Under the pieces are notes generated by a model that searched no databases, was not told where the DNA came from, and saw only the letters and a program-made list of their open reading frames with translations. From Shinella fusca (lineage in GTDB: Bacteria; Pseudomonadota; Alphaproteobacteria; Rhizobiales; Rhizobiaceae), in the NCBI RefSeq assembly GCF_014203155.1, contig NZ_JACHIK010000004.1:372001-436000 (forward strand): a DNA stretch of 64,000 nt, given 5' to 3'. This document shows positions 35,059 to 52,640 of this stretch, one piece after another; positions within the stretch are counted from its first letter, which is position 1, and each line of letters starts with the position of its first letter. The position numbers and the translations under genes are program-made.

Positions 35059-38000
35059 TCATTGCCCATTCTCAAAAAGTGTGCCGTCATTCACCGACGC
35101 GACCCACGGCCATTCCGGAAAGTCCACCAGCACCGGACCGGCGAGCAGACGCGCAGTATCGAAGACAACAAGTTCGTCCGTCGGAAAGCCCTCGGGCACC
35201 AGCGTCAGCGGCGGCAGGGGGCTGGCGAACGGCGCATTCACGTCTGCCGTTGCGACTGCCGTGTCATTGCTCAGCACATAATTCCTTGCGTCGACGCCGC
35301 CGAGGCGCAAACCTGTAATGGTGATCGCCTTGTCCTGTCCGGGGCTCGCATCACCGAACTGGCCATGGCCGCTCGCGACCTGCAGCACGTCGCCCGCCAC
35401 CGCACCGATGAAGACCGTCTGTGTATAGTCGAGCAGCGCTCCGGTGGTTCCGTCATAGGCCTTGTTCACGCCGCGAATACCGGTGATGGCGGAGATCGTC
35501 GCACGAGCGATATCGGCCGTCGTCGCCGCGGTTCCGGTGATCGAATAGTTCTCCGCATCCTGACCGAAAAGCGTGATGCCACCAATCGTTACGACCTTTC
35601 CGGCACCGGCGTTCTTGTCGGCGAACAGGGAACTCGCATAGGCGAAGAAGACCTCGTCGGATCCAATAATGCCATCGAGCTGGCCGCCCGTGACCGTTGC
35701 CGACGTGGTGCCGTCATAGACTTTCCCGGCCGCCGTGAAGCCCGACATCGAGAGGCTTGCGCGCGCGATATCGGCGGCGGCCGCCGCCGTCGTGTCACCG
35801 AGCACGTAGTTGCCGGATGATGCACCGCCGAGCACGATGCCCGTAATGTTCACCGTTTTGCCGCTGCCGGCATTCTTGTCTTCGAAGGCTCCGCTGGCGG
35901 CGGCGACTTCGAGGTCATCCCCATCGACCATGCCGGTGAAGCCCGCGCCCGACGTCGCGAGCGAAGCGGCGGTGGTTCCGTCGTAGGTCTTGCCGGATGC
36001 CGCAATACCCGTGACGGCGGATATCGTCGCCCTGGCAATGTCGGCGGTCGTCGTCGCCGTCGTGTCGGCCAGCGTATAGTTGCCGGCGTCGTCACCCGAC
36101 AGGGCAATGCCACTGATCCTGACGGTCTTGCCGTTCCCGGCATTCTTGTCTTCGAAGGCGCCGGTTGCGCTGGAAACGATCAGGGTGTCGCCGCTGACCA
36201 TGCCGGTGAAGCCGGCATCATCGGTGTCAACCGTCGCAACGGTCGAGCCGTCATAGGTTTTGCCGGATGCTGTAATGCCCGTGACGGCGGAAATCGTCGC
36301 CTTGGCGATGTCGGCGGTCGTCGTCGCCGTCGTGTCGGCCAGCGTATAGTTGCCGGCGTCGCCGCCAGACAGGGCAATGCCGTTAATCGTGACGGTCTTG
36401 CCGTTCCCGGCATTCTTGTCCCCGAAGGCAGCACTGAGGAATGTCGATGACAGATCGTCATCGGCGATCATGTTGTCGATCGTTCCGGCGGTGGTGATCT
36501 GCGCCCCGGTCGAACCGTTGTAGACCCTGTCGGCAGCCGCATAGCCGTCGATGGAGACCGCACGCTTCTCGATGGTGGCGGTCGTCGAGGCTGTCGTGCT
36601 CGAGAGTGTGTAGTTGCCGGCATCGTTACCCCCGAGGATGAGGCCGGAAATGTTGACCGTCTTGTCGTTCCCCGCGTTCTTGTCGCCGAATGCACCGATA
36701 GAACTTGCAACCGTCAGAACGTCGTTCAGGACCATGCCGGAGAAGGATACGCCCGAGAAGTTGAGGGTCGCGTTTGCCGTACCGTCATAGACCTTGTCCG
36801 AAGCGGTGATACCCGTGACGCTGCCGATCGCGGCCTTCGTGATGTTCGCGGTCGTGGTGATCGAACTCAGATCCAGGATGTAGTTGTCGGCGTCGGCACC
36901 GCCGAGCACGAAGTTCCCGACGGTCACCTCCTTGCCCGTTCCCGCATTCTTGTCCGAGAACGTGCCGGTGGCGGCGGAAAGCAACAGATCTTCGCCGGCG
37001 ACGAGCCCCTCGAAAGTCACCCCGGAAAAGTCCAGTGTGGCCGAGGTCGAGCCGTCATAGGTCTTGTTTGCGGCGAGTATGCCTGAAATGCCGGTGATCA
37101 CGGCGCGGATGATATCGACCGCATAGGTGCCGCTGGCGAGCGTGTAGTTTGAAGCGAGGCCGGTGCCATCGGCCAGCGCGAGCGTTCCGAGCGAAACGAC
37201 CTTGCCTGTTCCCAGGCCGTTGTCGACCATCGCGCCCTGCCCGGTCAGGGTCAGCGTCTCATCATTGGCGAGATTAAGGAGAGTGAAGATGGACGCATCG
37301 AGAACGGACGTGCGGTCATAGCCACGATTACCGAGAAGCGACACAACGCGTTTGTTGATCGTCAGGCCGCCGGCGTCGAAGCCCATATAGTAGTCACCGG
37401 CCTCGCCCGCCGAATAGGTCATCGCGAAGATGTCCTGCGTTGACCAGTCATAGGTACCGACATTGGTGGACGTCGTGATGGCACTGCCCCACCCGACCGT
37501 TACGTTGTCCGCGCCGATGCCGCTGACGACGACACCGTTGGTCGAAGGCGTGTCCCCGTAGGTGCCGGTGGCGTTGCCGCCGACACGCACATAGTAATTG
37601 TAGACCGGAGCCGATGTGAGGGTGCGGAGAACCGGTGCGCCGCCGGCCTTGGGCGTGGCCCAGGCAGAGGCGAAATCCCAGCCCGCCGCAATGAGGCGGA
37701 ACGGATCGATGAGCTGCTGCACCGCAAGGTCCGTCACCGTCCCGCAGGCCGCGTTGCCGCAGGCGCCGCTGCGGCCCGTGGCAGCGGAACTCCAGCTGCT
37801 GTCGTCGATCGTGGACTGGTTCTGCCCGACGAGCCCGCCGGTATTGTAGCTTCCGCTGACCGTACCCATAGCGAAGGCATTGCTGACCGTGCCAAGGTTC
37901 ACCCCGACCAGGCCGCCGACATTCTGGCTACCGTTCACCGTGCCCGAAGCGTAGGAGAATTCGACAGCGTCCTGATTGACGCCAACCAGACCGCCGATGG

Positions 38001-41000
38001 CATTGCTGCCGCTTACCGCGCCCGTGGCATAGGCATTCCTGATGCTGGCGATTGTCCTTCCCACCAGCCCGCCGACATTGTCGGAGCCGGTAACGCTGCC
38101 CGCCGCGTAGGCCGTATCGATCTGCGCGGTGTTCTGGCCGATCAGCCCGCCGGTATAGTTCGCGCCGACTACGCTCGCCGTCGAGAAGACATTCTCGACG
38201 ACCCCGTTATTGGCCACCCCCGCGAGGGCTCCGGTGCTGTTGCGCCCGATTACCTTGCCGCCGACGAGGCCGACATTGCGGATCGTTGCGCCATACGTCT
38301 GCCCGAACAGGCCCACGCCATCCATGTCGCCCCGGTTGATGACGAGATTGGAAATCGTATATCCCCGTCCATCGAAGGTGCCGCTGAACAGGCCCACGCC
38401 AGCGTTGTCGCCCACCCCGAAGAAGCCCATGCCGTCGGAAGACGACGTGGCCCACATGTCGGAGCGGCTGCCATCGGTCAGCAGGCTGCCGAAGTCGATA
38501 TCGTGCAGCAGACTGTAACTTGCACCGGGGTTCAGCACCATGAGCTGAAGCTGGTTGATGCTGGAAATGACGGTCGAATATTCCGACCGCAGGAAGGGGC
38601 GGGTATTGCCCTCGATCATGAACCAGTCGTTCACGAAGTCCCATCCGACATAACTCGCCTGCGTCAGCATTTCAGCGGTCGTGTAGGCGGCGACATTGGA
38701 CGTCTGAGGGGCTGCCCAGTAGGGTTCCTTGAAGATCAGCCGGTCGGTTCCAGCTGTTTCCTTGTCGAAAAAGCTGTCGGTTATGAACGCTTCCCCGTTG
38801 GCGACACCGATAAAACCGCCAACATTCTGACCGCCGCTGACCCCGCCTGAAGAGAAGGACTGCGACACGGTTCCCTTCGACAGCCAGCCGACCAGCCCGC
38901 CGACGCTGGAATCGCCGGAGACGCTGCCTGTTGCGTAAGACTGTGTGACGCTGTTCGTGTCGCGCGACATATAGCCGACCAGGCCGCCGATATTCGCGCT
39001 GCCGTAGACCGAACCGGTCGCATAGGAGCGCAACACGGTGCCACCGTCCAGATAGCCGACCAGACCACCGACATTACCGGATCTGTCTCCGCCCACACTG
39101 CCGGTAGTAAAGGAATCCGTGACCGTTCCATTACTGTATCCGACGAGTCCACCCAGGTTCCGGCGGCCTTGAATATTCATCAACCTGACATCGCCCGTCG
39201 TGTGGGAGCGACTGATCGAACCCAGTTCATTGTACCCGACCAGACCACCGACATTGCCGTCGGCGCTGCCGTTGTTGCTGACACCGGTTACGGCTGCGCT
39301 GGACCAGGTGTTGTCGATCGCTCCCGATGAGGAATAACCCACCAGAGCGCCGACATTGATCATGCCCAAGATGCTGCCACCGGAAATCCCGATATTGCGG
39401 ATGATGCCGCCATTGCTTCCCGAACCACCCAGAAAGCCGACCAGGCCGATCTCATTTTCACCGGGACGATCAATCGTCAGATTCTTGACGACATGGCCGA
39501 GCCCGTCGAGCGCGCCGGTAAACCGCGACCCGTAGTCGCCGAGGGGATCGAAACCCGCACCGCCGTTCCAGCCGGCCGTTGCCGTCGCATCGATATCGGC
39601 ACCCAGCACATAATAGCCGGAAAGGTTGCCGTTGATGCCCTGAAGGTCGCTGCCGGTCGTGCTGCCGGCCGCACCGAGCGCGGTTATGACGGTCCAGTCG
39701 ATCGCCGCGGCCGCCCCCTTCTGCGTGCGGAACAGGCTGCCTGCGGCAAGGTTGACGGAAGCATTGATCGTGTAGCTGCCGGTGGCGGTCGTCTGTGCGT
39801 ACTGGAGCACGAGACCATCCGTCAGGCTCGTGCCTGTCGATGTGAGCGTGGCGTTGATGACGATATTGTTGTCCGCCCGCAAGGTCAGGGCATGCGAGCC
39901 CCATGTCACCGAGGCATTGACGTTGATGTTGCCCTCATCACCGCCATTGCCGTCGTTGTAGGTGGAGACCTCCACGTCACCGGTCGCAAGCGCCGTCTCC
40001 AGCGCGGTCGCATAGTTGTTGTCGATGGTGATGTTCACCGGGTCGATGACCCATTTGCCGCCGCCGGTATCCACCTTCGCCGTCTTGTCGAGTGTCACCT
40101 TTGCGGCGGAGGTTTCCACCCGCTTCGCCTTGAGCTTTCCAGCGACCCTGACCTCGCCGTTCTGCATGTCGCCGAGCAGCAGGATGCGGCCGTCACGCGT
40201 CCCGATGGAACTTGCCTCGATGGTGCCGGAGTTGTTGACGACACCCTTCATGGCCGCCGACGCGCCCTTGGCCGTCAGGATGGCGACACCCTTGTCAGCC
40301 TTGATGACGCCCTTGTTCTCGACCAGCGTCTCCATGGTCGAGCCCTTCACCTCCACCGACAGCAGGCCGTCGCCGTCGAAGTCGAGAAGGACGTCCGTTC
40401 CGCCCGCCAGGGCGGTATTGCCGGTGATTGTGCCCGCATTGGAAACGGATGGCGCGATCAAGGCGACCGTGCCGCCGACGATGTCACCCTCGTTGACGAT
40501 CGATCCGCCGGTGCCCGTGAAACTGTAGGTGCCGGAGAGGAATTTCTCGTCGCTGATACCGAGGGTGGAGGCAACAAAGGCACCGGTCTGCACGCGACCG
40601 GTCTTGCCGATCGCCACGCCGTTGGGATTGATCAGGAAGACCTGCCCATTGGCAGTAAGATTGCCGAGAATCTGCGAGGGGTCCTGCCCGATCACACGGT
40701 TCAGGGCGACAGAGGACGCGCCCGGCTGGTTGAAGGTGACGGAATTGCCCGCGCCGACGGAGAAGCTCTGCCAGTTCGCGATCATCCGGTCGGAGGACTG
40801 GTTGATCGTCATGGCCCCGCCGTTTACGCCGATCGTCGCCGAGCCGGATACGACCTGCCCGCCCGTTGGCAGGGCATCCTGCGCCATCGCGGAGGAAAGC
40901 GCCATCGAGGACAGAAGTCCCGCAAGCGCGCCGGCTGCGATACCGCTTGCCGGCAACCTGTTCCTGCGCCGTCCAGACTTTCCGCCGCCCGCGCCGACGG

Positions 41001-41067
41001 CGCATTCCGGCACGACGATCAGACGACCGAGGCTCTTCGACCAGATATGCCTGTAGATCCTGTTCAT
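35059..41067 (-). CDS. Two-partner secretion exoprotein (FHA/TpsA family)
   Basis: A 2,002-residue TpsA. It starts MNRIYRHIWSKSLGRLIVVP, an extended signal peptide region, followed by a hydrophobic core ending near SSAMAQ. The TPS/haemagglutination domain follows (~70-185: NQSSDRMIANWQSFSVGAGN, FLINPNGVAIG). GLUG-type repeats (GGLVGY...) lie at about residues 580-760 and 945-1085. Six or more YDG/MBG-like repeats (SGKTYDGSTVA...TITGIALSGGDAGNYTLA) occupy ~1320-1880. A short proline-rich tail ends the protein. It is secreted by the TpsB gene 10 bp upstream and likely acts in adhesion. A longer frame extends to 41181 but overlaps TpsB and lacks a signal peptide. Confidence 0.95.
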   Translation of the reverse strand: MNRIYRHIWSKSLGRLIVVPECAVGAGGGKSGRRRNRLPASGIAAGALAGLLSSMALSSAMAQDALPTGGQVVSGSATIGVNGGAMTINQSSDRMIANWQSFSVGAGNSVTFNQPGASSVALNRVIGQDPSQILGNLTANGQVFLINPNGVAIGKTGRVQTGAFVASTLGISDEKFLSGTYSFTGTGGSIVNEGDIVGGTVALIAPSVSNAGTITGNTALAGGTDVLLDFDGDGLLSVEVKGSTMETLVENKGVIKADKGVAILTAKGASAAMKGVVNNSGTIEASSIGTRDGRILLLGDMQNGEVRVAGKLKAKRVETSAAKVTLDKTAKVDTGGGKWVIDPVNITIDNNYATALETALATGDVEVSTYNDGNGGDEGNINVNASVTWGSHALTLRADNNIVINATLTSTGTSLTDGLVLQYAQTTATGSYTINASVNLAAGSLFRTQKGAAAAIDWTVITALGAAGSTTGSDLQGINGNLSGYYVLGADIDATATAGWNGGAGFDPLGDYGSRFTGALDGLGHVVKNLTIDRPGENEIGLVGFLGGSGSNGGIIRNIGISGGSILGMINVGALVGYSSSGAIDNTWSSAAVTGVSNNGSADGNVGGLVGYNELGSISRSHTTGDVRLMNIQGRRNLGGLVGYSNGTVTDSFTTGSVGGDRSGNVGGLVGYLDGGTVLRSYATGSVYGSANIGGLVGYMSRDTNSVTQSYATGSVSGDSSVGGLVGWLSKGTVSQSFSSGGVSGGQNVGGFIGVANGEAFITDSFFDKETAGTDRLIFKEPYWAAPQTSNVAAYTTAEMLTQASYVGWDFVNDWFMIEGNTRPFLRSEYSTVISSINQLQLMVLNPGASYSLLHDIDFGSLLTDGSRSDMWATSSSDGMGFFGVGDNAGVGLFSGTFDGRGYTISNLVINRGDMDGVGLFGQTYGATIRNVGLVGGKVIGRNSTGALAGVANNGVVENVFSTASVVGANYTGGLIGQNTAQIDTAYAAGSVTGSDNVGGLVGRTIASIRNAYATGAVSGSNAIGGLVGVNQDAVEFSYASGTVNGSQNVGGLVGVNLGTVSNAFAMGTVSGSYNTGGLVGQNQSTIDDSSWSSAATGRSGACGNAACGTVTDLAVQQLIDPFRLIAAGWDFASAWATPKAGGAPVLRTLTSAPVYNYYVRVGGNATGTYGDTPSTNGVVVSGIGADNVTVGWGSAITTSTNVGTYDWSTQDIFAMTYSAGEAGDYYMGFDAGGLTINKRVVSLLGNRGYDRTSVLDASIFTLLNLANDETLTLTGQGAMVDNGLGTGKVVSLGTLALADGTGLASNYTLASGTYAVDIIRAVITGISGILAANKTYDGSTSATLDFSGVTFEGLVAGEDLLLSAATGTFSDKNAGTGKEVTVGNFVLGGADADNYILDLSSITTTANITKAAIGSVTGITASDKVYDGTANATLNFSGVSFSGMVLNDVLTVASSIGAFGDKNAGNDKTVNISGLILGGNDAGNYTLSSTTASTTATIEKRAVSIDGYAAADRVYNGSTGAQITTAGTIDNMIADDDLSSTFLSAAFGDKNAGNGKTVTINGIALSGGDAGNYTLADTTATTTADIAKATISAVTGITASGKTYDGSTVATVDTDDAGFTGMVSGDTLIVSSATGAFEDKNAGNGKTVRISGIALSGDDAGNYTLADTTATTTADIARATISAVTGIAASGKTYDGTTAASLATSGAGFTGMVDGDDLEVAAASGAFEDKNAGSGKTVNITGIVLGGASSGNYVLGDTTAAAAADIARASLSMSGFTAAGKVYDGTTSATVTGGQLDGIIGSDEVFFAYASSLFADKNAGAGKVVTIGGITLFGQDAENYSITGTAATTADIARATISAITGIRGVNKAYDGTTGALLDYTQTVFIGAVAGDVLQVASGHGQFGDASPGQDKAITITGLRLGGVDARNYVLSNDTAVATADVNAPFASPLPPLTLVPEGFPTDELVVFDTARLLAGPVLVDFPEWPWVASVNDGTLFENGQ
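35980..36440 (-). repeat. Near-identical 270-bp tandem repeats inside tpsA
   Basis: The blocks around 35980-36160 and 36250-36430 are offset by exactly 270 bp (90 codons) and share long identical runs, far more similar at DNA level than the other YDG units. This indicates recent duplication or gene conversion within the repeat array. Confidence 0.8.
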
Positions 41068-41077
41068 GTTTCCACCC

Positions 41078-42799
41078 TCAGAACTTGATAGCGCCCTGCA
41101 GCCAGAACTGGTGGCGGCGCGTGCTGCCGTCCGCGTTCTCGCCGGTGAGGCGGTCGCGGCCGGGATTGGAGCCGAGCGCATGCGCCCAGGCTGCGGAGAA
41201 GCTCAGATTTTCACGAGACCAGCGCGCCGAAACGCCGGCGCTGGCCAAGCCGTAATCGTTGCAGCCGCACACACTGGCGGCAGCAATGCCATTCGATTGC
41301 CGGTTCAAGCGCACGTAACCGGCATCCAGGAACGTCGCGAATTGCAGCGCTCCCCACATGTCGGGCACCGGGGCGTCGTAGCGAAGCTCGAGCGTGCCGA
41401 GCACGCCCATGTCGCCGCGGCCTTCACCAACGGGATAACCACGCACGCCATACGGCCCCCCGAGCGAAAAATCCTGCGAACTGTCGAGGTTCTTGTTCGC
41501 CCACTGGGCACCGACCCGGCCGAACAGCGAAAGATCACCCGGGAGCGCCTGCAGGCGCGATACCTGCGCATTCAGCGTCTGGAAACTGCCCTGTGTCTGC
41601 AGGCTTGCCTCATCGGCGGCCATCGCGCCGGGAACGCGGGAAAGATCGAGGTCACCGAGGGTCCACCCGAGCGACCAGCTTGTCAGCCCGCCACCCAGAA
41701 TGTCATCACGCACGTCACCGGCTATGCCGAAGGTGCCCGCGATAACGCGCTTGTCCTGAAGACGGCCGACAAGGCTGTCGTCGATCAGGGCCTTCCAGTC
41801 GAGATCGGCGGTCAGCCGGACATTGACGTCACGCGAACGCACCAGGCTGTAATCGAGACCGACACCGGCATAGTGGGCCTGCCCTTCCAGACCGAGAACG
41901 GAACCGACCGCATCGACATTGCGGTAATCGAGAAATCCGTAATTGGCGCTGAAGGAGAGCGGGCCGGTGCCGAGCGGCATGCTGAACGCGGCCTGTGCGA
42001 ATTTTTGCCCTTCGGAAACGGTGGTCGTAAACCGTGTGACATCGCCGTATCCGGAGAGATCGGTCAGCACAAACTGCCCGTTTGCCTGCGCCCTGCCGGT
42101 GGACGACGAGCCGGCATTGTCACCCCAGAGGCTGGCGGAGAAAAGCGGCGCCTGCTCCACGCCAATGACAAGCCGGCTTGTCTGGGGTGCCGCGCCCGCC
42201 ATCAGCCTCGCTCGCGCCGTGACGCCGGGATGATCGTTCATCCGCAGCAGTACCGCCTCGAGATCCTTCTTCTCCACACCGTCGGCAGGAAGCTCCGCCG
42301 CGAGACCTTCGAGCCTGCCCTGGCGGGCTCGGACGTCTCCCTTGCGCTCGACGACTTTTTCGCTGAGATGCCCTTCGCGTATTTCGACGCGCACGACACC
42401 TTCGGTAATGTCCTGGGGCGGGAGAACCGCGAAAGCCAGAAGCCGCCCTTCCTTCTGGGCGGCGATCGTCACCGTGTCGGCGATTGCCTTTATGCCGGCA
42501 ATGCCGAGGCACTGGCCCTGCACGGCCGAGGCGATGCGCGCACGTTCCTTCTCCGGCAGGATATCGACCTTGCCGGTGAAGAGCAGGCTTCGCACAATGA
42601 TCGTCTGCCCCTGCTGGGCGCCTGCGACGGGCCTTTCCTGCGCGGACGCATCGTCTTCGACGGAGGGCAGCCTGTCGGGGCGCAGACTATCCTCGCGCCT
42701 CTGCTGCTCGCGCAAGAGCGCACCCGCGTCCTGTGCCGCAGCCGGCAGGGATGTTCCGGCCAGAAGCAGGCACAGAAGAGCCGAAATCCTGAAATGCAC
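41078..42799 (-). CDS. Two-partner secretion outer-membrane transporter (TpsB, ShlB/FhaC-like)
   Basis: A 573-residue Omp85-superfamily pore. It has a signal peptide (ISALLCLLLAGTSLPAAAQ), POTRA regions (VRSLLFTGKVDILPEKER..., LLAFAVLPPQDITEGVVRVE), and a beta-barrel with the conserved GGPYGVRGYPVGEGRGD loop that holds the plug motif. The C-terminus ends in an aromatic strand (QFWLQGAIKF). It should export the adjacent TpsA. GAGGAAA lies upstream of the ATG. Confidence 0.95.
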   Translation of the reverse strand: MHFRISALLCLLLAGTSLPAAAQDAGALLREQQRREDSLRPDRLPSVEDDASAQERPVAGAQQGQTIIVRSLLFTGKVDILPEKERARIASAVQGQCLGIAGIKAIADTVTIAAQKEGRLLAFAVLPPQDITEGVVRVEIREGHLSEKVVERKGDVRARQGRLEGLAAELPADGVEKKDLEAVLLRMNDHPGVTARARLMAGAAPQTSRLVIGVEQAPLFSASLWGDNAGSSSTGRAQANGQFVLTDLSGYGDVTRFTTTVSEGQKFAQAAFSMPLGTGPLSFSANYGFLDYRNVDAVGSVLGLEGQAHYAGVGLDYSLVRSRDVNVRLTADLDWKALIDDSLVGRLQDKRVIAGTFGIAGDVRDDILGGGLTSWSLGWTLGDLDLSRVPGAMAADEASLQTQGSFQTLNAQVSRLQALPGDLSLFGRVGAQWANKNLDSSQDFSLGGPYGVRGYPVGEGRGDMGVLGTLELRYDAPVPDMWGALQFATFLDAGYVRLNRQSNGIAAASVCGCNDYGLASAGVSARWSRENLSFSAAWAHALGSNPGRDRLTGENADGSTRRHQFWLQGAIKF

Positions 42800-43792: not shown

Positions 43793-44135
43793 TGCGTGGC
43801 GCTCGTCCCGCCTGAATTACACGGAGACAGGCAAGCCTTCGACGCGATCCCGATGGATCGCATCGCCGCTGTCTGCCAGGCTCCGTTCTGTTCCGGTGCA
43901 TCACAGCGGCCCCGGGCCGCGCGTGAAAAACCCTAGGCCAGGTCGGCCGATGCGGTCCTGAACGCGGCGGCGCAAACGTCTGAAAGATTCTGAAATTTTT
44001 CTGAAATTGCGGGAAGATGCCATGCGGGCCATGGCAGAAACCACACCGAAATGCTCTCTCCCAACGCGTGTTGACGGTAGCGCTTCAGCCTCTCTATGGT
44101 GCGTCGCCATTGCGGCCAGCAGCTTTGGGGGAAGC
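43793..44135. other. Divergent intergenic region
   Basis: This ~340-bp region lies between the two regulator genes. It contains ...TCTGAAAGATTCTGAAATTTTTCTGAAATTG near 43978-44008, a triple TCTGAAA direct repeat with ~10-bp spacing that could be a regulatory site. No gene is supported. Confidence 0.45.
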
Positions 44136-45773
44136 GTGTACAGTTTTTCGGGATTCACGCTGGATCCGGACCGGAGGGAAGTACGAGACCCGAACGGTGA
44201 ACTGGTACGCTTGCGCCCTAAGGCCTTCGAGCTTCTGCGTTTCCTTGTCACGCACCAGCGACACCTGCTCGCCAAATCGGAGCTCATGGACGCCGTCTGG
44301 CCAGGTATCCATGTCGGGGAAGACAGCCTCTTTCAGGCCATCCGTGAAATCCGAATCGCGCTCGGTGACGACGACCGGCGAATGGTCCGGCTCGTGTCCG
44401 GTCGTGGTTATCTGTTCGCTGTCGACGTCTCTGCAGCAAATAGCACCGAACCGGAGGACGGTGCACCAACCCCACCGCAAACCTCTGCCGGCCGTGCTCC
44501 CGGCAACCGCAGGCATGTTGTTCCCGCTGTGCTTGTCCTGCTCCTGGTTGTGGCGATCGCCGCATTCTTCTTGCACGGTAGTGCCTTCAACAACCTTCCG
44601 CCCTCGGTCAGTGTTCGTCCGATCGTTCATGATGCCGGAGATGCAGAGGGTACCGCCTTGTCGCAGGGGATTCTTACCCAGCTCGTCGCCGGGCTTTCGA
44701 AGATCGACGGCATCGACCTGATCGAACAGGAGGGGCCGCACACGGCGGGGCAACAGGCTGCGACATACGAAATCCAGGGAGAACTGCGTCGCGAGGAGCA
44801 ATCATGGCACTATCAGGCCCGCCTCGTTGATCTTGCGAGCGGGCGCATTGAATCCGTTGCTGAGATATCGTCGGATGCGGCAGAGGGCAGCGCGCAGTTG
44901 CTGCAAACCAGACTGGCGGCGCGCGCCGGCTATGCCTTCGCTGACAGGCTGAACAGTCTTCAGCTCAAAGGGCAGGCAGCACGCGACCCCGCAGGCGACG
45001 TCGCAATACGTCAGGCGATAGCCTCGATCAACCAGACGACGCAGGAACGCTTCGCGACGGCGCTTGCAATCCTCGAAAAGAGCCTCTCCGCCGATCCCGA
45101 CAATGTCGATCTGCAGGTCGCGCTCGCAGCACTTCGCCTGCGTGGCGTGCAGATGGCCTGGTACGATCCGGCCAGAAGCCTCGAGGCCGAGGAAGACGCC
45201 CGCGTTCTTCTGGAGCGGGCATTGAAGGCGCGGCCCAACGCGGTCGCCATATTGGGCGCCTACTGTCGCTTCCTGACGGTAACAAACCAGTTTTCCGAAA
45301 GCCTGGTCGCCTGTGCGCGGGTTCTTACCGCCAATCCCTGGGACGGGACGGCACTCTTTCATCTCGGCATGACGCACGTTCAGCTGGGCCGTTTCGCCGA
45401 TGCGCTTGCTGTCTTTTCACAAGCGGATCGTTTCGACACACCCGAGGTGTCACGGTGGACGTGGATGCTGGGCGCAGGCTGGGCGAGCCTCCTGATGGAC
45501 CGGAACGAAGACGCCGTCACCTGGCTGGAGCGCTCGGTTGCCATCACGCCGGCATCCGGCCGGGCCTACATGCTGCTCGCCGCCGCCTATCAAAATCTCG
45601 GCCGAACCGCGGATGCGAAGAACGCCTTTGCCAAAGCGATGGAAATCAGGCCGCAATCCACGGTGCGCAACATCTCCCTGCCCGCCCGCAATACCAGTGA
45701 TATCTACCTGCGTGCCCGCCAGAGCATCAATCGCACCCTTGCCCAGCTCGGCTTGCCGAATGAAACGCCCTGA
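44136..45773 (+). CDS. Membrane-anchored winged-helix (OmpR-type) regulator with TPRs
   Basis: A 545-residue CadC/ToxR-like protein. The OmpR/PhoB DNA-binding domain (residues ~1-100) includes YSFSGFTLDPDRREVRDPNG, LVRLRPKAFELLRFLVTHQR and RLVSGRGYLF. A single transmembrane helix follows (VVPAVLVLLLVVAIAAFFLH), then a periplasmic part with TPR-like repeats (GTALFHLGMTHVQLGRFADA). The GTG at 44136 begins exactly where CadC-like proteins begin and follows GGGGGAAG; ATG codons upstream (44007, 44022) are in frame but would add unrelated residues. Divergent from the TPS locus regulator. Confidence 0.85.
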   Translation: MYSFSGFTLDPDRREVRDPNGELVRLRPKAFELLRFLVTHQRHLLAKSELMDAVWPGIHVGEDSLFQAIREIRIALGDDDRRMVRLVSGRGYLFAVDVSAANSTEPEDGAPTPPQTSAGRAPGNRRHVVPAVLVLLLVVAIAAFFLHGSAFNNLPPSVSVRPIVHDAGDAEGTALSQGILTQLVAGLSKIDGIDLIEQEGPHTAGQQAATYEIQGELRREEQSWHYQARLVDLASGRIESVAEISSDAAEGSAQLLQTRLAARAGYAFADRLNSLQLKGQAARDPAGDVAIRQAIASINQTTQERFATALAILEKSLSADPDNVDLQVALAALRLRGVQMAWYDPARSLEAEEDARVLLERALKARPNAVAILGAYCRFLTVTNQFSESLVACARVLTANPWDGTALFHLGMTHVQLGRFADALAVFSQADRFDTPEVSRWTWMLGAGWASLLMDRNEDAVTWLERSVAITPASGRAYMLLAAAYQNLGRTADAKNAFAKAMEIRPQSTVRNISLPARNTSDIYLRARQSINRTLAQLGLPNETP

Positions 45774-46057: not shown

Positions 46058-46744
46058 CTAGCTTTCGTCTGTTGTATCCTGCCCATACTTTGAAATCTCT
46101 ACCATTTCTTTCCGGCTGAGCAGCCCGGCATCCTCCAGCGCCTCGATGTCGGGCAGATCGCGCAGCGTCTGCATGCCGAAGGCTGAGAGGAACTGCTTCG
46201 TCGTGACATAGGTGTAGGGCGCGCCCGGCGTCGGGCTGCGCGGGCCGGAGGCGAGGAAACTGGCATTGCGGAGGCTCGCAATCGTGTCGCGGCTGACCTC
46301 CTTGCCGAAGATTTTCGACAGGTCGCCGCGGGTGATCGGCTGGAAATAGGCGATGGCCATCAGCACCATGGCCTCGAAGTCGGACATTACAGGCGCCGCA
46401 TTCCGCGTTGATGTCTGCGACGCCCGGATCGCGGATGCGTAAGCCGAACGGCTTCGATGCTGCCAGCCGCCCGCAACGGCGACGATCTCGTAGGACCGGT
46501 CCCGCAATTCCGCGCGCAGGTCGTCGATCAGGAGGTCGATGCTGCAGTCCCTGCCGACGACACGGGCCAACGCCTCCCGGCTGACCGGCTCTGCCGCGGC
46601 AAAAATCACCGCCTCCACCCGCAGCATCCATTCGCGCCAGCGCAGGGCCGGCGGCAGTTCGGCCAGTTCCCGATCCAAGAGGACTTCGTCCTCCGGTGAC
46701 GATCTGCGGTTTCGCCGCGTGCCGCTTGCGTCCGGTTCAACCAT
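46058..46744 (-). CDS. scpB: ScpB-family segregation/condensation protein, plasmid-borne
   Basis: A 228-residue paired winged-helix protein of the ScpB family: LRVEAVIFAAAEPVSREALA, V-V-G-R-D-C-S-I-D, then FEAMVLMAIAYFQPITRGDL and PGAPYTYVTTKQFLSAFGMQ, TLRDLPDIEAL. In chromosomes ScpB binds ScpA and SMC. Here no ScpA or SMC gene is adjacent; instead it follows a DUF1403 gene by two bases. The ATG at 46744 (MVEPDASG) is used; the longer frame runs through DUF1403 antisense-free sequence of another frame. A replicon-specific variant seems likely. Confidence 0.9.
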   Translation of the reverse strand: MVEPDASGTRRNRRSSPEDEVLLDRELAELPPALRWREWMLRVEAVIFAAAEPVSREALARVVGRDCSIDLLIDDLRAELRDRSYEIVAVAGGWQHRSRSAYASAIRASQTSTRNAAPVMSDFEAMVLMAIAYFQPITRGDLSKIFGKEVSRDTIASLRNASFLASGPRSPTPGAPYTYVTTKQFLSAFGMQTLRDLPDIEALEDAGLLSRKEMVEISKYGQDTTDES

Positions 46745-46746
46745 CG

Positions 46747-47700
46747 TCACAGCCCATAGATCCGGAACGAGGTGCGGCCGGACAGCTCCCGCACGGCGCC
46801 AAAGCCTTCCAGCCGGTCGAACAGCCGGGTCGCCGCCCAGCGCGAGAGGCCGCTGCCCAGGGCCGAAGCCGGCACGGCATCGTCCTCGAGCAATTTCGCG
46901 ATGACCGCGTCGGCGCCCCGGGTGCGGACCTTCGGCGCGGCGACGACAAGCGCATCCGCCCGGCGGGCGATTTCCGATGCCGAACGCAACGCCGCGCCGG
47001 CTCCTTCGGTCAGGGCAAGGCAGACGGCCCGGGCAAAGGCCGGATCGCCCGGGCGCACGCGTCCCCTGCCCCCGAGCGTCTTGAAGGCCGGGCCGTAGCG
47101 CTCGGCCATCAGCAGCGGCACAGCAAAATCCCATTTCAGCATTACGGCGATCAGCCCATCGGCCAACACCCACGCCAGCGGCTCGGCATCCGGGCGCGCT
47201 GCGCAGATCGCCGACACCAGGTCCGCCGCGGCGAAGGGGGCCGGCCGCCCGGCCTGTAGCATCCTGTCGCCATGGTCGACGGCTTCGGCAAGCCGCTCAT
47301 CCCGGACGAGGCCCAGCAGATCGGCCAGTTCCATCATGCTTTTCGTCGAAAAGCCGGGTTTTCGCGCAGAAAACCTCTTGGTGGCCAAGAACACTTTTCC
47401 AGCCGGGCCAGGATCGTCACCGGCCGCCGTCAGCAGCACGGCATCACGCAACGCTGCCTCATCCTCGCTGCGGCCCATCAGCCGGATCGCGGCGGCGGCG
47501 CATTTCAGCGCCTGTCGCGCGCGCCAGCAACCGGCCCAAATGGGTGCGGCGCGGACAAGATCGTCCAGCGATTTCAAGGCGATGCCAGTAGCAAAGGCGG
47601 CATCGAGGTCTCCCGGCTCGCGGCCGCGCGACAGCGCCCAGCCGGGAATGTGCGGCAAAGGCGATGCGGGGACCGGAACGGAGATGGCGCGCGAATCCAT
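46747..47700 (-). CDS. DUF1403-family protein
   Basis: A 317-residue, helix-rich protein matching the DUF1403 family seen in rhizobia: [60 protein letters not shown], ending in [20 protein letters not shown]. No catalytic motif is apparent. The stop lies two bases before scpB, so the genes are almost certainly coexpressed. Given that ScpB normally needs a kleisin partner, DUF1403 could be a partner or adaptor; this is inference. Confidence 0.85.
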
Positions 47701-47774
47701 GCCGGGAAGACTACAGCAATCGTGCGGTTAGGGCTACGGAGAACCCATAAAACCGCACGGCTTGTCGAACCATT

Positions 47775-47809
47775 ATAACGAACGATAATCTTGCATTATC
47801 GTTCATTAT
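47775..47809. repeat. 35-bp inverted repeat at the recombinase start (possible recombination core site or operator)
   Basis: GAACGATAAT-CTTGC-ATTATCGTTC is a perfect 10-bp-arm inverted repeat with a 5-bp asymmetric centre (47780-47804). It extends outwards to 14 of 15 matching arm positions (47775-47789 and 47795-47809). It lies between DUF1403 and the tyrosine recombinase and touches the recombinase's first possible ATG (47808). Confidence 0.75.
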
Positions 47810-48974
47810 GCCGTCCTATGAGGAAATGACCTCTCCCATCGAGCAGAACAGCGAAAAGCCCGCTCCGGAACACGCTACGCCGGCGGATAATACAGCGCTT
47901 GCGGTTAATGTTTCGCTTGCGCCGGTGTCGGCCGCCCTCCCCTCCCCTTCCCCGGAAGGCCGTTCCGGCGCGACCGCGCATCTGCAGGATCTCACCGATC
48001 GCGCCCGCGCCTATGTCGAGGCCGCCGCCTCCGCCAATACCCGGCGCGCCTATGCCTCCGACTGGAAGCATTTTGCCGCCTGGTGCCGGCGGCAGAACCT
48101 TCCGCTTCTTCCTGCCGACCCGCAGGTCGTCGGCCTCTACATCACCGCCTGCGCCGCCGGCAGCGCCGCAAGCACGTCTGCAGGCGCCGGCAGGCCGATG
48201 AGCGTTTCGACCATCGAACGGCGGCTGTCGTCGCTTTGCTGGAACTATGCCCAGCGCGGCGGAGAAAAGCTCGACCGCAGGGACCGCGCCATCGCCACCG
48301 TCCTTGCCGGCATCCGCAACAGGCATGCCGCCCCGCCGCGGCAGAAGGAGGCGATCCTGCCGGAAGACCTGATCGCCATGCTGGAGACGCTCGACCGGGC
48401 AAGCCTGCGTGGCCTGCGCGACCGGGCCATGCTGCTGATCGGCTTTGCCGGTGGCCTGCGCCGCTCGGAAATCACCGGCCTCGACCTCGGGCGTGACCAG
48501 AGCGAGGATGGACGCGGCTGGGTCGAAATCTTCGATCGGGGCCTGCTCCTGACACTGCGCGGCAAGACCGGCTGGCGCGAGGTGGAGATCGGCCGCGGCT
48601 CCTGCGACGCCACCTGCCCCGTCGTCGCGCTCGAAACCTGGATCCGCTTTGCCAGGATCGCCAGAGGACCGCTCTTCCGCCGCGTGACCGGCAAAGGCAA
48701 GGACGTCGGCCCCGACCGGCTCAACGACCAGGAGGTGGCCCGCCTCGTCAGGAAGACGGCGCTGGCCGCCGGCGTGCGCGGCGATCTTCCCGAGGCCGAG
48801 CGCGGGCAGAAATTCGCCGGCCATTCGCTGCGCGCCGGCCTTGCCTCCTCGGCCGAAGTCGACGAACGCCACGTCCAGAAGCAGCTCGGCCACGCGTCCG
48901 CCGAAATGACCCGCCGCTACCAGCGCCGGCGCGACAGGTTCCGCATCAACCTTACCAAGGCTGCCGGACTGTAG
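47808..48974 (+). CDS. Tyrosine recombinase/integrase linked to repABC
   Basis: A 388-residue tyrosine recombinase. The N-terminal SAM-like core-binding domain is at ~60-165 (YVEAAASANTRRAYASDWKH). The catalytic domain has Arg in GGLRRSEIT, His-x-x-Arg in GHSLRAGLAS, His in LGHASAEMT and the nucleophile Tyr in TRRYQRRRD. Start could be 47808 or 47826; the latter follows GAGGAA closely and lies outside the inverted repeat. It is convergent with repC and divergent from DUF1403/scpB. A role in resolving replicon multimers is plausible, but an integrase role cannot be excluded. Confidence 0.9.
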   Translation: MPSYEEMTSPIEQNSEKPAPEHATPADNTALAVNVSLAPVSAALPSPSPEGRSGATAHLQDLTDRARAYVEAAASANTRRAYASDWKHFAAWCRRQNLPLLPADPQVVGLYITACAAGSAASTSAGAGRPMSVSTIERRLSSLCWNYAQRGGEKLDRRDRAIATVLAGIRNRHAAPPRQKEAILPEDLIAMLETLDRASLRGLRDRAMLLIGFAGGLRRSEITGLDLGRDQSEDGRGWVEIFDRGLLLTLRGKTGWREVEIGRGSCDATCPVVALETWIRFARIARGPLFRRVTGKGKDVGPDRLNDQEVARLVRKTALAAGVRGDLPEAERGQKFAGHSLRAGLASSAEVDERHVQKQLGHASAEMTRRYQRRRDRFRINLTKAAGL

Positions 48975-49008
48975 AGTTTCGCAAACGGCCGATGAAACCC
49001 ACATGGCG

Positions 49009-50229
49009 CTATCCGGCATTCCCGACGCTATCCCTATTGCCGTTCGCCCGCAGCAGGGCCATGAGCATCGGGCCGAGGGAGAATTCGCCGCGCGCGGCCT
49101 TTCGCGTCAGATCGCGCAGATAGCCGCCCGGTGAGCTGATGTGCCCTGCCCTTTCGAGGATGCAGGCGATGGCGACCGCGGCATTTTCAGGCCCCATGAC
49201 CTCGCAGGCTTCCTGATAAGCCGAGGGACTGACCCCCAGCATCGAGCGGACCACCACCGCGGCCGTCATCAGGTCCCGCCAGTGCGAAATGGCACCGTCC
49301 GGGCCATACATCGCGATATCCGGGCATGCCCGCAGCACCATGCCCAAGGGGAACGCCTTCAGCGGCTCATGCCGGCGTTCGTTCTGGATCGCCGGCTTCG
49401 CGCCCTGCTCGTCTTCTGAGCGAGGTTCAAGTTCATTGCTGGATTCGGGATTTGAATTCTGTTTGTGCTGACGCCATTCGGCATCATTGGCGTCGGTTTT
49501 TTGAGAAAGAAGCAAATCTTCCAGCATGTTGGAGATTTCCTCCTGCAACAGGGAAAGCTCGTCGAGGCAGTCTGCGAGATCGGACAGCGTCTTTGCTGCG
49601 CGAAGGCGGGCGACGGCCGCAAGATACTGGTCCTCCACGAACGCCCAGTCGCCCCCGGCGCCCTCTTCCATGGCGGCGGAGATGAGCTTGCGGATGTTGC
49701 GGCGGGTAATGGTGATCCGCTCCCGGACGATCTTCAGCCGGCGGCGCTCCTCGGCGACCTCCTGTGCCATCTGCGCCAGCTCCTCGGCGCGGGCAAGCAA
49801 CGGCGCGAGATTGAAGCCGTAGGCCGTCTCGATCGCCCCGTCCCTGCTCTTGCGGGCGTAGCGCTTGCCGTTCGGGCTGTCCTGGCGATGGATGAGGCCC
49901 GCCTGGACGAGGAGCGCCAGGTTCTCACGGAGCGTCGTGCCGGCAATGCCGTTCGCCCGGGCCGAGAGCTGCGCGTTGGATGGAAAGACGACGAGGTTGT
50001 CGCCCTCCTTCAATTCCACCTCGGGGTGGAAGGAGAGAAGCGCGTTGAGAACGGCAAGCGCACGGTCCCGCACGCCAAGCAGCGTGCGCGCGTCGCAGGC
50101 GTCCCGATAGATCTTCCACTTGTCCGCGGATTTCCCGCTCCTGATATTGGCCGTCTCGAACTGGCCTTTCACCAGCGCAAGCGTCATCGGCCGCCGCCCG
50201 AAGGGCGTCGTCACATGTCCACTCTGCAT
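49009..50229 (-). CDS. repC: Plasmid replication initiator RepC
   Basis: A 406-residue RepC. It starts MQSGHVTTPFGRRPMTLALV, has the N-terminal winged-helix region (KWKIYRDACDARTLLGVRDR, LVVFPSNAQLSARANGI, TTLRENLALLVQAGLIHRQD) and the C-terminal PSAYQEACEVMGPENAAVAI and SPGGYLRDLTRKAARGEFSL. RepC initiates replication at an origin inside its own gene in this family. It is the last gene of the repABC operon, preceded by the counter-transcript region. Confidence 0.97.
   Translation of the reverse strand: MQSGHVTTPFGRRPMTLALVKGQFETANIRSGKSADKWKIYRDACDARTLLGVRDRALAVLNALLSFHPEVELKEGDNLVVFPSNAQLSARANGIAGTTLRENLALLVQAGLIHRQDSPNGKRYARKSRDGAIETAYGFNLAPLLARAEELAQMAQEVAEERRRLKIVRERITITRRNIRKLISAAMEEGAGGDWAFVEDQYLAAVARLRAAKTLSDLADCLDELSLLQEEISNMLEDLLLSQKTDANDAEWRQHKQNSNPESSNELEPRSEDEQGAKPAIQNERRHEPLKAFPLGMVLRACPDIAMYGPDGAISHWRDLMTAAVVVRSMLGVSPSAYQEACEVMGPENAAVAIACILERAGHISSPGGYLRDLTRKAARGEFSLGPMLMALLRANGNRDSVGNAG
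49415..49530. other. Putative replication origin inside repC
   Basis: This segment of repC (encoding the hydrophilic linker with SSNELEPRSEDEQG) is distinctly AT-richer than the rest of the gene. In characterised repABC plasmids oriV lies in an AT-rich stretch within repC. The placement is by analogy. Confidence 0.5.
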
Positions 50230-50385: not shown

Positions 50386-51360
50386 TCAGTCTCCCCTGTT
50401 TTCTTCGTCCAGGAACTGCGCATAGAGCGCATCCAGATTGCGTGACAGAAAATCGCCGAAACGCACGGCGTTCTTCGCCTTCATCGAAAGCGAGAAAACC
50501 TTCCCGCTGTTCTTGATCTCCGCGACGACCGCGCGGTCCTGCGGCTCCCATTTCGCCTTGCCCGCCGCCGGCTCCGTCTTCTTCACGGTGCGCGCGGAGG
50601 TATTGAGCGCGCCGTACAGCGACAGGAAGCGCTCGTCCGAAGGCAGGTCGCGGAAGCCGGGCGCACCGGCGAGCTCGCGCGCCTTGCCGAGGCTGGAGGC
50701 CTTGCCGACCAGCAGCGACAGCTCCACCCAGCGCTCGCGCCCGATGCCGGGCGTCTCGCCGATGGCGTGGATAACGTCGGCGGGGATGCGCTCGGTCACC
50801 GACATCATCTTCGAGACGGCGGCCGCATTGGCGGCAAGCGCCGCCGAGATCACCTCGCGGTCGTAGCCAAGATCATCGAGCCGGCGCGCAAAGAGGGCCC
50901 GCTCGATGAACGTCAGGTTGGCGCGGGCGGAATTCTCCTGCCCCTGGGCGATGACGTGGGTCCGATCGTCGATCGTCTTGACGACGGCCTTCACCTTGCG
51001 GCCGAGCTCGCGCGCGGCGCGAAGGCGGCGGTGGCCGAAGACCACCTGGTAGCGCCCGGCAAGGCTCGCATGGGGACGCACGAGAATGGGGGTATCCTGG
51101 CCGCGGCTGCGGATCGCCTCGACGAGCTCGCGGAAATCGTCGTTGTCCTGCGCCAGGCGGTCCTGCACGAAGGAATCGTCGATGAGATCGGGATCGAACT
51201 CGACGACCGCCTCCCCCTCCAGGAAGCGGTCGGCCTGCCGGGCGAGCTCGTCCAGCGAGCGGACGAGCGACTTGCCCGCCCCGCGCATCGGATAGGACGA
51301 TGGGCTCGCCGTGTCGTCCGTCAGAGTGGCCAAGCCCTCGAGAAGATTCTTCCGCGCCAT
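50386..51360 (-). CDS. repB: Plasmid partitioning protein RepB (ParB family)
   Basis: A 324-residue ParB-like centromere-binding protein: SLVRSLDELARQADRFLEGE, ELVEAIRSRGQDTPILVRP, the CTP-binding box GRYQVVFGHRRLRAARELG, TFIERALFARRLDDLGYD, and an HTH region NAAAVSKMMSVTERI. It lies 71 bp downstream of repA with a palindrome-rich spacer, and 156 bp upstream of repC. With RepA it segregates the replicon and represses the operon. Confidence 0.97.
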   Translation of the reverse strand: MARKNLLEGLATLTDDTASPSSYPMRGAGKSLVRSLDELARQADRFLEGEAVVEFDPDLIDDSFVQDRLAQDNDDFRELVEAIRSRGQDTPILVRPHASLAGRYQVVFGHRRLRAARELGRKVKAVVKTIDDRTHVIAQGQENSARANLTFIERALFARRLDDLGYDREVISAALAANAAAVSKMMSVTERIPADVIHAIGETPGIGRERWVELSLLVGKASSLGKARELAGAPGFRDLPSDERFLSLYGALNTSARTVKKTEPAAGKAKWEPQDRAVVAEIKNSGKVFSLSMKAKNAVRFGDFLSRNLDALYAQFLDEENRGD

Positions 51361-51431: not shown

Positions 51432-52640
51432 TCAACGTCCCCATGCCCGGTGGATGAGATCGGCGATCTCGCCGTTCACCGCGTCCAGCGATTCCAGCGC
51501 CCGGTCGTAGGTCGCGCGGTTCATCGATGCGCGCTCGACCTCGTACAAGGTTTGCTTGGTGATGCCGGCATCCGAAACGGCCGTCGACTTCACCATCTGG
51601 TTCTTCAGCATGAATTCGTGGAACATGGTCGACATGAAGCCGACCATCTGCGCCTGCGGCACGTCCGTCGGCTCGTAGCGCGTGATGAGGTAGCGATACC
51701 AGGAAAGATTGACCTCCGCGCCCGCCGAACGGATCGGCTTGAGGATGCCGCCGAGCATGAGCAGGAACTGGCCCATCGACATGACGTCCAGCATCTGCGG
51801 ATGGATCGTGATGAGCACGCTCGTTGCGGCCGTCAGCGCGGTCAGCGTCAGGTAGCCGAGCTGCGGCGGGCAGTCGATCACCACCACGTCGTAGCGGTCG
51901 TCCACATCGGCCAGCGCCCGCGAGATGCGGGTGAAGAAGGTGCGCCCCTCGTTGGACGACTTGTCGGCCATGGCGAGCGGGGTGTCGTATTCGTATTCCT
52001 GTAGGTCGAGATTGGCCGGAACGATATCCAGCCCCGGGAAATTCGTAGGCCGGATGATATCGGCCAGCGGCTTGCGCTCGCCGTCGTAGCGGATGGCATC
52101 GTAGATCGAGGCGACCTGATCCAGCTCCGGCTGGAAGCCGTGGAGGGACGAGAGGGACGCCTGCGGGTCGAGGTCGACCGCAAGCACGCGATGCCCCGTG
52201 AGGGCGAGATACTGCGCCAGATGCGCCGCTGTCGTCGTCTTGCCGGAGCCGCCCTTGAAATTGACGACGGCAACGACCTGCAGCTTCTCGCCGCTGCGCC
52301 GATGGGGCACATACATGCGGCTTTCCGAACGGCCATGCGCATCGAGGTACTGGCGCAGCTCCAGCATCTGCTCGGCGGTGTAGGACCGGCGGCCGGACGA
52401 GGAGGTCTGCGGGGAGGGGCCCTTGCCGTCGAGATGCAGCTTCTTCAGCGTGCTCTGCGACACCCCGACATAGGCGGCGACCTCCGCCAGCGAGAACGAC
52501 CGCAGGGTCTTCCTCGCATTGGGCGGGAACCGCTGCACGCTGAGCAGATGCAGCTTCTTCGAGATCAGATCGCCCTGTTCGAGGATCTGGTCTTCGAAGT
52601 TCATCGGAGCATGCAGCGAAGCGCTCGGATTAGCGTTCAT
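51432..52640 (-). CDS. repA: Plasmid partitioning ATPase RepA (ParA family)
   Basis: A 402-residue ParA-type ATPase with an N-terminal HTH (SLAEVAAYVGVSQSTLKKLH, ~50-70) used in autoregulation, the deviant Walker A KGGSGKTTTAAH (129-140), DLDPQASLSSLHG, and VVVIDCPPQLGYLTLTALTA (Walker B). It is the first gene of the repABC operon. The perfect palindrome CGTTCATGAACG at 52634-52645 spans its start codon. Confidence 0.97.
   Translation of the reverse strand: MNANPSASLHAPMNFEDQILEQGDLISKKLHLLSVQRFPPNARKTLRSFSLAEVAAYVGVSQSTLKKLHLDGKGPSPQTSSSGRRSYTAEQMLELRQYLDAHGRSESRMYVPHRRSGEKLQVVAVVNFKGGSGKTTTAAHLAQYLALTGHRVLAVDLDPQASLSSLHGFQPELDQVASIYDAIRYDGERKPLADIIRPTNFPGLDIVPANLDLQEYEYDTPLAMADKSSNEGRTFFTRISRALADVDDRYDVVVIDCPPQLGYLTLTALTAATSVLITIHPQMLDVMSMGQFLLMLGGILKPIRSAGAEVNLSWYRYLITRYEPTDVPQAQMVGFMSTMFHEFMLKNQMVKSTAVSDAGITKQTLYEVERASMNRATYDRALESLDAVNGEIADLIHRAWGR

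Follow-up and report, generated by a model that had tools for sequence, protein, structure and literature searches.

DUF1403 and an ScpB homologue as candidate helpers of a plasmid site-specific recombination module in the Rhizobiaceae

Introduction

The Cre/loxP system of phage P1 resolves plasmid dimers by means of a tyrosine recombinase that needs no helper and acts on palindromic arms placed around an asymmetric spacer of 8 bp. Recombinases of this family share a set of catalytic residues (R, K, H-x-x-R, H/W and Y) in their Phage_integrase domain. Here we analyze a unit of comparable design on a contig of Shinella fusca (NZ_JACHIK010000004.1, positions 372,001 to 436,000; this whole stretch of 64,000 nucleotides is referred to as the window), in which a tyrosine recombinase gene diverges from a gene pair encoding a DUF1403 protein and an ScpB-like protein, with a palindromic core and an accessory inverted repeat between them. 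We propose, as a reasonably probable reading, that the unit is a plasmid site-specific recombination module for multimer resolution, with DUF1403 and the ScpB-like protein acting as repeat-binding helpers.

The accessible excerpts of four articles bear on related designs. In the TnpS/TnpT/rst system of Tn4651-type transposons, a recombinase and a helper are encoded divergently, and the core repeat IR1-IR2 and the accessory repeat IRa-IRb lie between them (PMC7157771; in the excerpt, figure legend and text name the two genes oppositely). The Rhizobium etli recombinase IntA recombines TCCGATAA-N7-TTATCGGA in vivo and in vitro, the full site at attA/attD of p42a/p42d being TCCGATAAGCATTACTTATCGGA (PMC4928290), and some p42a/p42d cointegrates resolve into recombinant plasmids (PMC3224233). 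On S. meliloti pSmeLPU88b and its relatives, a 'XerD' downstream of repABC has been called Cre-like, with toxin-antitoxin genes near by and a suggested role in concatemer resolution (PMC10194956); its position is like that of the recombinase studied here, and the excerpt describes no site, DUF1403 or ScpB. Our literature search found no paper on DUF1403, a weak absence since subscription papers were thinly covered, and, under the same thin coverage, none on scpB together with repABC; among the matches listed for the string GATAATGCAA with 'plasmid', none concerned this subject.

The PF04079 ScpB family is common to the SMC-ScpA-ScpB condensin and to the plasmid unit. In the condensin the partner gene of ScpB is scpA, whereas here it is DUF1403, and the unit holds no kleisin partner. 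A preliminary description of the locus had proposed a plasmid condensation, cohesion or copy-resolution system in which DUF1403 could replace or bridge the kleisin.

Results

Layout of the unit and its core site

The three genes lie at the coordinates given in the preliminary description, and domain matches to ScpB, DUF1403 and Phage_integrase agree with its family calls. Two bases (46745-46746) separate the DUF1403 stop from the ScpB ATG, and the two genes look like one operon; the recombinase is divergent from this pair, with RepC, RepB and RepA beyond it, so the spacing, the divergence and the neighbouring repCBA genes were all found as described. Absent from that description are a near-perfect palindrome at 47775-47809, between the recombinase and DUF1403, and the inverted repeat beside it. 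The features of the unit are as follows.

46058..46744, minus strand: ScpB-like protein, 228 aa, second gene of the putative helper operon (PF04079, E 6.1e-32)
46747..47700, minus strand: DUF1403, 317 aa, first gene of the putative helper operon (PF07183, E 4.1e-110)
47722..47758, no strand: accessory inverted repeat, type A, GTGCGGTT-N21-AACCGCAC (window sequence; conserved columns)
47759..47767, minus strand: CGACAAGCC block (consensus CGACAgGC) in the interval from core to repeat (per-column information content)
47778..47806, minus strand: core recombination site, an 11-7-11 palindrome within the larger one, ATGAACGATAA-TGCAAGA-TTATCGTTCGT on the DUF1403 strand
47808..48974, plus strand: tyrosine recombinase (P0003), 388 aa (PF00589 Phage_integrase, E 1.1e-13)

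The same genome contains a second copy, in which window positions 46108-48978, from recombinase to ScpB, match contig G000:C2 at 95.1% over 2871 bp. In the 17.9 kb around that copy, just three short weak matches to the window lie beyond the unit; because the second copy shares essentially nothing else with the window, the three genes and their intervening DNA look like one inheritance unit.

Read on the DUF1403 strand, the core has the consensus ACGANCGATAA-TGCAANA-TTATCGNTCRT (from 69 aligned sites, of which one, L232, is spurious), with arms of 11 bp and an asymmetric 7-bp centre in which CAA is nearly invariant. The CGACAgGC block follows about 10 bp past the core, then GCGGTT, and AACCGC some 20 bp further. 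Among the first five relatives inspected with a palindrome finder, three, including Bradyrhizobium and Phaeobacter, have a palindrome at the same place; in the other two it is less perfect (L007) or present as the right half only (L005). The arms covary at pair -3, which is complementary in 63 of 72 distinct cores against a mean of 37.6 and a maximum of 50 in 500 shuffles of the right arm, and at pair -2, with 41 complementary cores against a shuffle mean of 30.1 and maximum of 41; apart from pairs -5 and -1, considered below, the remaining pairs are nearly invariant and uninformative on covariation.

When up to three mismatches are allowed, the 4.85 Mb genome yields exactly two core matches, one per DUF1403 module, and none for a reversed control. 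Both sites share the centre TGCAAGA, and an insulation of co-resident plasmids by differing 7-bp centres was not seen by eye. Our family survey of 199 Rhizobiaceae genomes gives, with up to two mismatches, 77 core matches in 51 genomes versus one control match, and 53 of the 77 lie 102-236 bp before a DUF1403 match, with identical orientation in 53/53. The 77 matches fall on 75 contigs, two of which hold two, although a contig need not be a complete replicon and some of the matches could have arisen by chance. An order-wide search with a pattern that proved too strict found matches in 2 of 101 genomes.

The association can also be viewed from the side of DUF1403. Upstream regions were fetched for 86 of 88 near-full-length DUF1403 places (leaving out the window's own copy and one further copy on G443:C3), and a core was called with at most 3 of 14 fixed positions wrong. 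It is present in 65 of the 81 loci whose upstream sequence exceeds 300 bp. Where a divergent recombinase is found, 52 of 53 loci have a core, against 7 of 21 that lack a recombinase over more than 7 kb of upstream sequence; the core therefore goes with the recombinase. The upstream side of these 21 loci reveals no common partner gene except one two-member cluster. Twenty of the 24 unlinked core sites were examined: a recombinase is present in 10 and an adjacent DUF1403 in none, although the sequences of L144 and L145 stop no more than about 550 bp from the site, too near for DUF1403 adjacency to be judged. L130 and L146 carry a core and GCGGTT block close to a weak repC match (107-111 bits), and neither a recombinase nor DUF1403 was found in these stretches. 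In L135, L139 and L141, which lack DUF1403 on the right of the core, inspection by reading shows a gene for a transposase-like protein of about 190-230 aa that begins some 300 bp from the site.

Comparison with known recombination systems

The window recombinase carries the residues of its family (R218/R219, H339, R342 and the Y of RRYQRRR, from the family alignment), and the closest PDB sequences are those of Cre (E about 6e-4). As in loxP, palindromic arms surround an asymmetric spacer, 7 bp long here against 8 bp in lox. TnpS of pWW0, which we take to be the gene recognised by annotation and position, is 29% identical to P0003 (E 6e-21; hhalign 99.5%), and its system follows the same plan, the recombinase being divergent from a helper with a core and an accessory inverted repeat between them. 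That helper, however, is TnpT (KfrA_N), whereas the probable helpers here are DUF1403 and ScpB, for which no similarity to it was found; DUF1403 as a TnpT homologue was rejected at an hhalign probability of 0.07%. TnpS/TnpT/rst moreover belongs to a Tn3-family transposon, whereas the present unit lies without a Tn3 transposase on plasmid backbones, often near repABC. The unit is a variant of the TnpS/TnpT layout with new and unrelated probable helpers.

IntA is likewise 29% identical to P0003. The arms TCCGATAA/TTATCGGA of attA/attD, as given in the accessible excerpt, equal those of many cores here, and the centre is 7 bp long in both, but it reads GCATTAC, differing from TGCAANA. In the intA neighbourhood, no DUF1403 or ScpB is found among the annotated genes of the stretch read (11 kb on one side, 1.3 kb on the other), and no GCGGTT repeat was seen by eye at the corresponding place beside attA/attD.

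Natural crossovers at the core

The octopine plasmid pTi (L004, pGV2260) and pTi1D1609 (L238) share 99.98% identity along the 7952 bp that run from repA through the core, and BLAST finds no similarity between them in the 1500 bp past it. The half missing from pTi1D1609 is found on the co-resident plasmid pAt1D1609a (L239), 99.8-100% identical to L004 from the core onward, with DUF1403-ScpB first and then the same ATPase, PIN, trypsin-like and TIR genes, and it is joined there to a different recombinase gene (79% identity over 613 bp). Both junctions, L004/L238 and L004/L239, fall inside a shared stretch of about 25 bp. Four further pairs switch at the core: L155/L156 (right side 99.9% over 9053 bp, left side without similarity), L150/L022 (left 98.3% over 5738 bp, right 68%), L189/L190 (right 100%, left without similarity) and L006/L241 (left 96.8% over 1291 bp, right without similarity). 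L162/L163, with 100% on the right and 75.8% over 1312 bp on the left, is taken as supporting only, its switch lying within about 20 bp left of the core. We did not count L016/L073 and L163/L211, in which identity on the matching side is gone within 200 bp, or L189/L219, which has no switch at the core though its BLAST alignment ended nearby.

Across 93 full triads, evolutionary distances agree less between DUF1403 and the recombinase (Spearman 0.49) than between DUF1403 and ScpB (0.83), indicating that the two sides of the core are shuffled among plasmids. Judging from these sequence junctions, the occurrence of crossovers inside the core is well supported; since the core is also tied to the recombinase, the unit can be regarded as a site-specific recombination module. 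The association of site and enzyme, together with the activity of IntA on the same arms, makes it likely that the window-type recombinase performs the core crossovers.

The accessory repeat and its two types

With at most three mismatches, the accessory repeat precedes DUF1403 in 66 of 70 loci with a core and in 9 of 16 without one; in 7 of those 9 it stands at the usual 62-77 bp before the DUF1403 start, and shuffled upstream stretches of the 16 core-less loci contain it in 70 of 640 cases. At 15 core sites without an adjacent DUF1403, the repeat is at its usual place in 11 under the same tolerance. A repeat common to the recombination site and to the DUF1403 promoter is what would be expected of a candidate binding site for DUF1403, possibly in company with ScpB.

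The repeat exists in two types, A (GTGCGGTT...AACCGCAC) and B (GGCGGTTT...AAGCGCC), and its arms match in 80 of 86 distinct blocks as read by crude regular expressions (5 discordant, 1 unreadable). On FastTree trees the type changes twice on DUF1403, four times on ScpB and ten times on the recombinase. Two DUF1403 residues are among those that follow it best: position 287 is R in 66/66 sequences with type A and D in 81% of 27 with type B, and position 288 is W in 88% of A and R in 96% of B.

Predicted folds of the two helper proteins

The AlphaFold2 model of DUF1403 has a mean pLDDT of 95.0 and a pTM of 0.91. In a Foldseek comparison with the PDB, Fic proteins fill the first 13 rows, headed by 7cb8 (E 3.3e-4, probability 1.00, TMq 0.56); just one row reaches an E of 0.001 or lower, and the rmsd is high, 6.7-10.5 A across ranks 1-10. 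The overall fold is like that of 3eqx/3zcn and 7cb8, with TMq up to 0.61 (3zcn), and these Fic proteins presumably also have a C-terminal winged helix. Fic proteins carry the motif HxFx(D/E)GNGR, whereas it is absent from all 118 DUF1403 sequences; their alignment has no conserved histidine column (maximum 26%), and a GGRGR stretch occurs in just 58 of the 118. We read helix 287-299 and the short hairpin in the predicted secondary structure as a putative winged-helix recognition helix and wing, which would place the type-linked residues 287-288 at the start of the helix, with the invariant R292, R296 and R309 near by. A Fic-like model, a missing Fic motif and a winged-helix end together give DUF1403 the appearance of an inactive Fic fold that ends in a DNA-binding tail. 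From this model and the correlation with repeat type, we infer that DUF1403 binds the accessory repeat.

Other searches for relatives of DUF1403 were negative within their scope: the window protein (P0002) and the 118-row profile found no remote homologue in the PDB by sequence at E 10, structure search found no match in the viral structure library at E 0.001, PADLOC matched no defence family, and the loci searched contain no natural DUF1403-ScpB fusion. A partial DUF1403-like stretch of 23.6 bits, below cut-off, lies in the same genome at G000:C1:288446-288733 (L003, L236).

The ScpB-like protein reaches 71.7 bits with the ScpB equivalog TIGR00281, short of the cut-off of 89.2, and is thus a homologue rather than a standard ScpB; it matches ScpB structures such as 3w6j and 4i98. 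In its AlphaFold2 model (pLDDT 84.6, pTM only 0.48), the secondary structure as we read it would fit two winged-helix units plus an N-terminal helix, 17-28, near a W-R-E-W motif. The genome's sole ScpA match (E at most 0.001) lies at G000:C3:341875-342525, with a chromosomal-type ScpB adjoining at C3:341280-341741, and the window accordingly encodes no ScpA, as first described. The preliminary description had named such a chromosomal pair as a possible sign that the window ScpB is a decayed copy. The pair does exist, but the window protein does not look decayed: plasmid ScpBs are strongly conserved (62 rows), the N-terminal W-R-E-W motif is found in 61 of the 62 versus none of 30 full chromosomal ScpB frames, and a FastTree tree separates them from 30 chromosomal sequences (one row being a 30-residue fragment) with two label changes. 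The shared operon suggests that ScpB may join DUF1403 at the repeat.

Distribution and genomic context

DUF1403 occurs in 712 of 72,556 plasmid records, and ScpB comes directly after it in 76 of 80 loci of the genome_contigs survey (the best 80 of 567 confirmed loci, a redundant set to which Rhizobium altiplani contributes six near-identical contigs). The same order holds for 75 of 83 Rhizobiaceae loci having more than 900 bp on that side. With DUF1403 so rare and ScpB nearly always next to it, the linkage is not due to chance; that of ScpB, DUF1403 and the recombinase is real and conserved across loci. In the family survey, a strong recombinase match (E at most 1e-50) is found in 61 genomes, DUF1403 in 70 and both in 59 (Fisher p 1.6e-36, uncorrected for kinship). 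In 18 genomes no recombinase has a DUF1403 within 9 kb on its own contig, and 16 of these have DUF1403 elsewhere.

On the far side of the recombinase, the window contains the following context genes.

49009..50229, minus strand: repC (RepABC_RepC, 558 bits)
50386..51360, minus strand: repB (PF07506, E 1.4e-28)
51432..52640, minus strand: repA (AAA_31, E 3.5e-38; named from its position beside repB and repC)

A rep gene lies inside the fetched flank in 35 of 64 loci of the genome_contigs survey and in 37 of 65 Rhizobiaceae loci, and none is found in the 17.9 kb surrounding the genome's second copy. The unit therefore often, but not always, adjoins repABC, and the linkage to repABC put forward at the outset holds for part of the loci.

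Several other neighbours were recorded from open reading frame (ORF) readings of the window. At 35059-42799 (minus strand), a 2040-aa repetitive, secreted-adhesin-like protein and a 573-aa outer-membrane transporter-like protein form a gene pair resembling two-partner secretion; at 44007-45773 (plus strand), just past scpB, lies a 588-aa protein whose N-terminal part is CadC-like and whose C-terminus is TPR-like. In other loci, TniQ/TniB come directly after scpB on Rhodobacterales plasmids (L006, 4396-7944; L007, 12557-14469), L006 also having a Mu-type transposase. Genes for ATPase, PIN, trypsin-like and TIR-domain proteins lie together beside the octopine Ti module (L004, 9752-17406; L239, 9601-16284) in what looks like a defence group, and they accompany DUF1403-ScpB on pAt1D1609a (L239). 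Toxin-antitoxin genes (VapBC, Phd/YefM, RelE/ParE) adjoin the recombinase in L004 (7136-7791), L008 (3978-6563) and L278 (2130-2769), and in L004 and L008 they are also placed between the recombinase and the core.

Discussion

In the mechanism we favour, the recombinase would bind both 11-bp arms and exchange strands in the asymmetric 7-bp centre TGCAANA, and DUF1403, accompanied by ScpB from the same operon, would use its C-terminal winged helix to bind the accessory inverted repeat next to the core. The DUF1403-ScpB complex would control its own promoter and act as an architectural helper, setting when and between which sites recombination happens. The routine job of the unit would be to convert plasmid dimers and multimers into monomers, much as P1 relies on Cre/lox and the cointegrates of Tn4651 are resolved by TnpS/TnpT. 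Compatible cores on two plasmids in one cell could also lead to fusion, and later resolution elsewhere to chimeric plasmids; an exchange between two circles would need such a second event, as with the p42a/p42d cointegrates. Multimer resolution as the main function is suggested by analogy with these systems, by the usual presence of one site per contig and by closeness to rep genes. Of the functions first proposed for the locus, copy resolution fits these data and the kleisin-substitute role of DUF1403 does not.

A number of results weigh against this reading. The link between site and helpers is incomplete: 24 of 77 core sites are not beside DUF1403, the strict core pattern detects a site at no more than 50 of the 88 near-full-length DUF1403 places, 16 of 86 DUF1403 loci have no core, 11 of 70 DUF1403 genomes have no recombinase match and two genomes have the recombinase without DUF1403. 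The helpers thus persist alone in some loci, and the co-occurrence of recombinase and DUF1403 may partly reflect plasmid-rich genomes, while contig breaks may hide linkage between them. At the site itself, core pairs -5 and -1 are within the shuffle range, and among high-identity pairs of one-genome-per-species loci only 2 of 8 alignment ends fall within 25 bp of the core, a thin sample; the clearer crossover cases came from searches of plasmids. The correlation between repeat type and DUF1403 is carried by few tree changes and is partly linkage, as both lie on the same side of the crossover. Finally, IntA acts on the same arms and, in the excerpt available, is reported for plasmid fusion, so the arms alone do not prove resolution, and its lack of a DUF1403 neighbour indicates that the helpers are not needed by every relative.

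The persistence of the pair on its own would also suit a simpler role, in which DUF1403-ScpB merely regulates its own promoter and the divergent recombinase, or is a hitch-hiking stability pair, outside the recombination complex. The repeat is kept before DUF1403 in 9 of 16 core-less loci, DUF1403-ScpB persists without a recombinase, and recombinase and core occur without an adjacent DUF1403. The repeat is, however, equally a companion of the site, being kept beside the core at 11 of 15 sites without an adjacent DUF1403; DUF1403 is present elsewhere in 16 of 18 genomes with unlinked recombinases only, and a two-gene operon including a condensin-subunit homologue is much for a simple repressor. 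We consider such a role fairly unlikely.

It also seems unlikely to us that the unit is primarily a fusion and exchange system, its recombinase mainly joining different plasmids and so carrying cargo or non-conjugative replicons, with resolution secondary. IntA, in the portion of its description available, acts on the same arms and allows cointegration, the natural products found are inter-plasmid chimeras, and left and right modules are shuffled among plasmids. Chimeras, however, survive to be seen whereas dimer resolution leaves no trace, and the usual single site per contig (77 on 75) and the conserved helpers fit a housekeeping reaction.

Within the multimer-resolution reading, a distinctly doubtful extension is that the plasmid ScpB, brought to the repeat by DUF1403, recruits the host SMC-ScpA condensin to the recombination site. 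Loop extrusion would then pair the sister cores of one plasmid, as FtsK does for XerCD-dif; if this were true, only multimers would be resolved, in step with chromosome segregation, and the unit would have co-opted a condensin subunit to make recombination selective.

The proposal of the preliminary description, with DUF1403 standing in for the kleisin ScpA and linking ScpB to SMC in a plasmid-specific complex for condensation or cohesion, draws on the ScpB homology, the operon with DUF1403 and a host that has its own ScpA-ScpB. Against it, DUF1403 and ScpA show no profile similarity (hhalign probability 0.4%, with an ScpA profile of 17 rows from 24 loci fetched), the DUF1403 model is Fic-like with a predicted winged-helix end that varies with the DNA repeat, and the frequent companions of the pair are a recombinase and its site; we rejected DUF1403 as a kleisin and find this proposal very improbable. 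An addiction module with DUF1403 as Fic-type toxin or antitoxin, as the Fic-like fold of this protein and the toxin-antitoxin genes beside several recombinases might suggest, is hardly credible given a catalytic motif in 0/118 sequences, no conserved histidine column, GGRGR in only 58/118 and no PADLOC family.

Conclusions

This analysis supplies a site, an enzyme and two probable helpers for a widespread and unexplained neighbourhood of alphaproteobacterial plasmids, Ti plasmids included, and offers a precise mechanism for part of plasmid mosaicism, in which halves are swapped at a core of 25-29 bp. The structural model suggests a fold and a DNA target for DUF1403. The unit also presents an ScpB homologue outside the condensin setting, making the role of ScpB without a kleisin a testable question.

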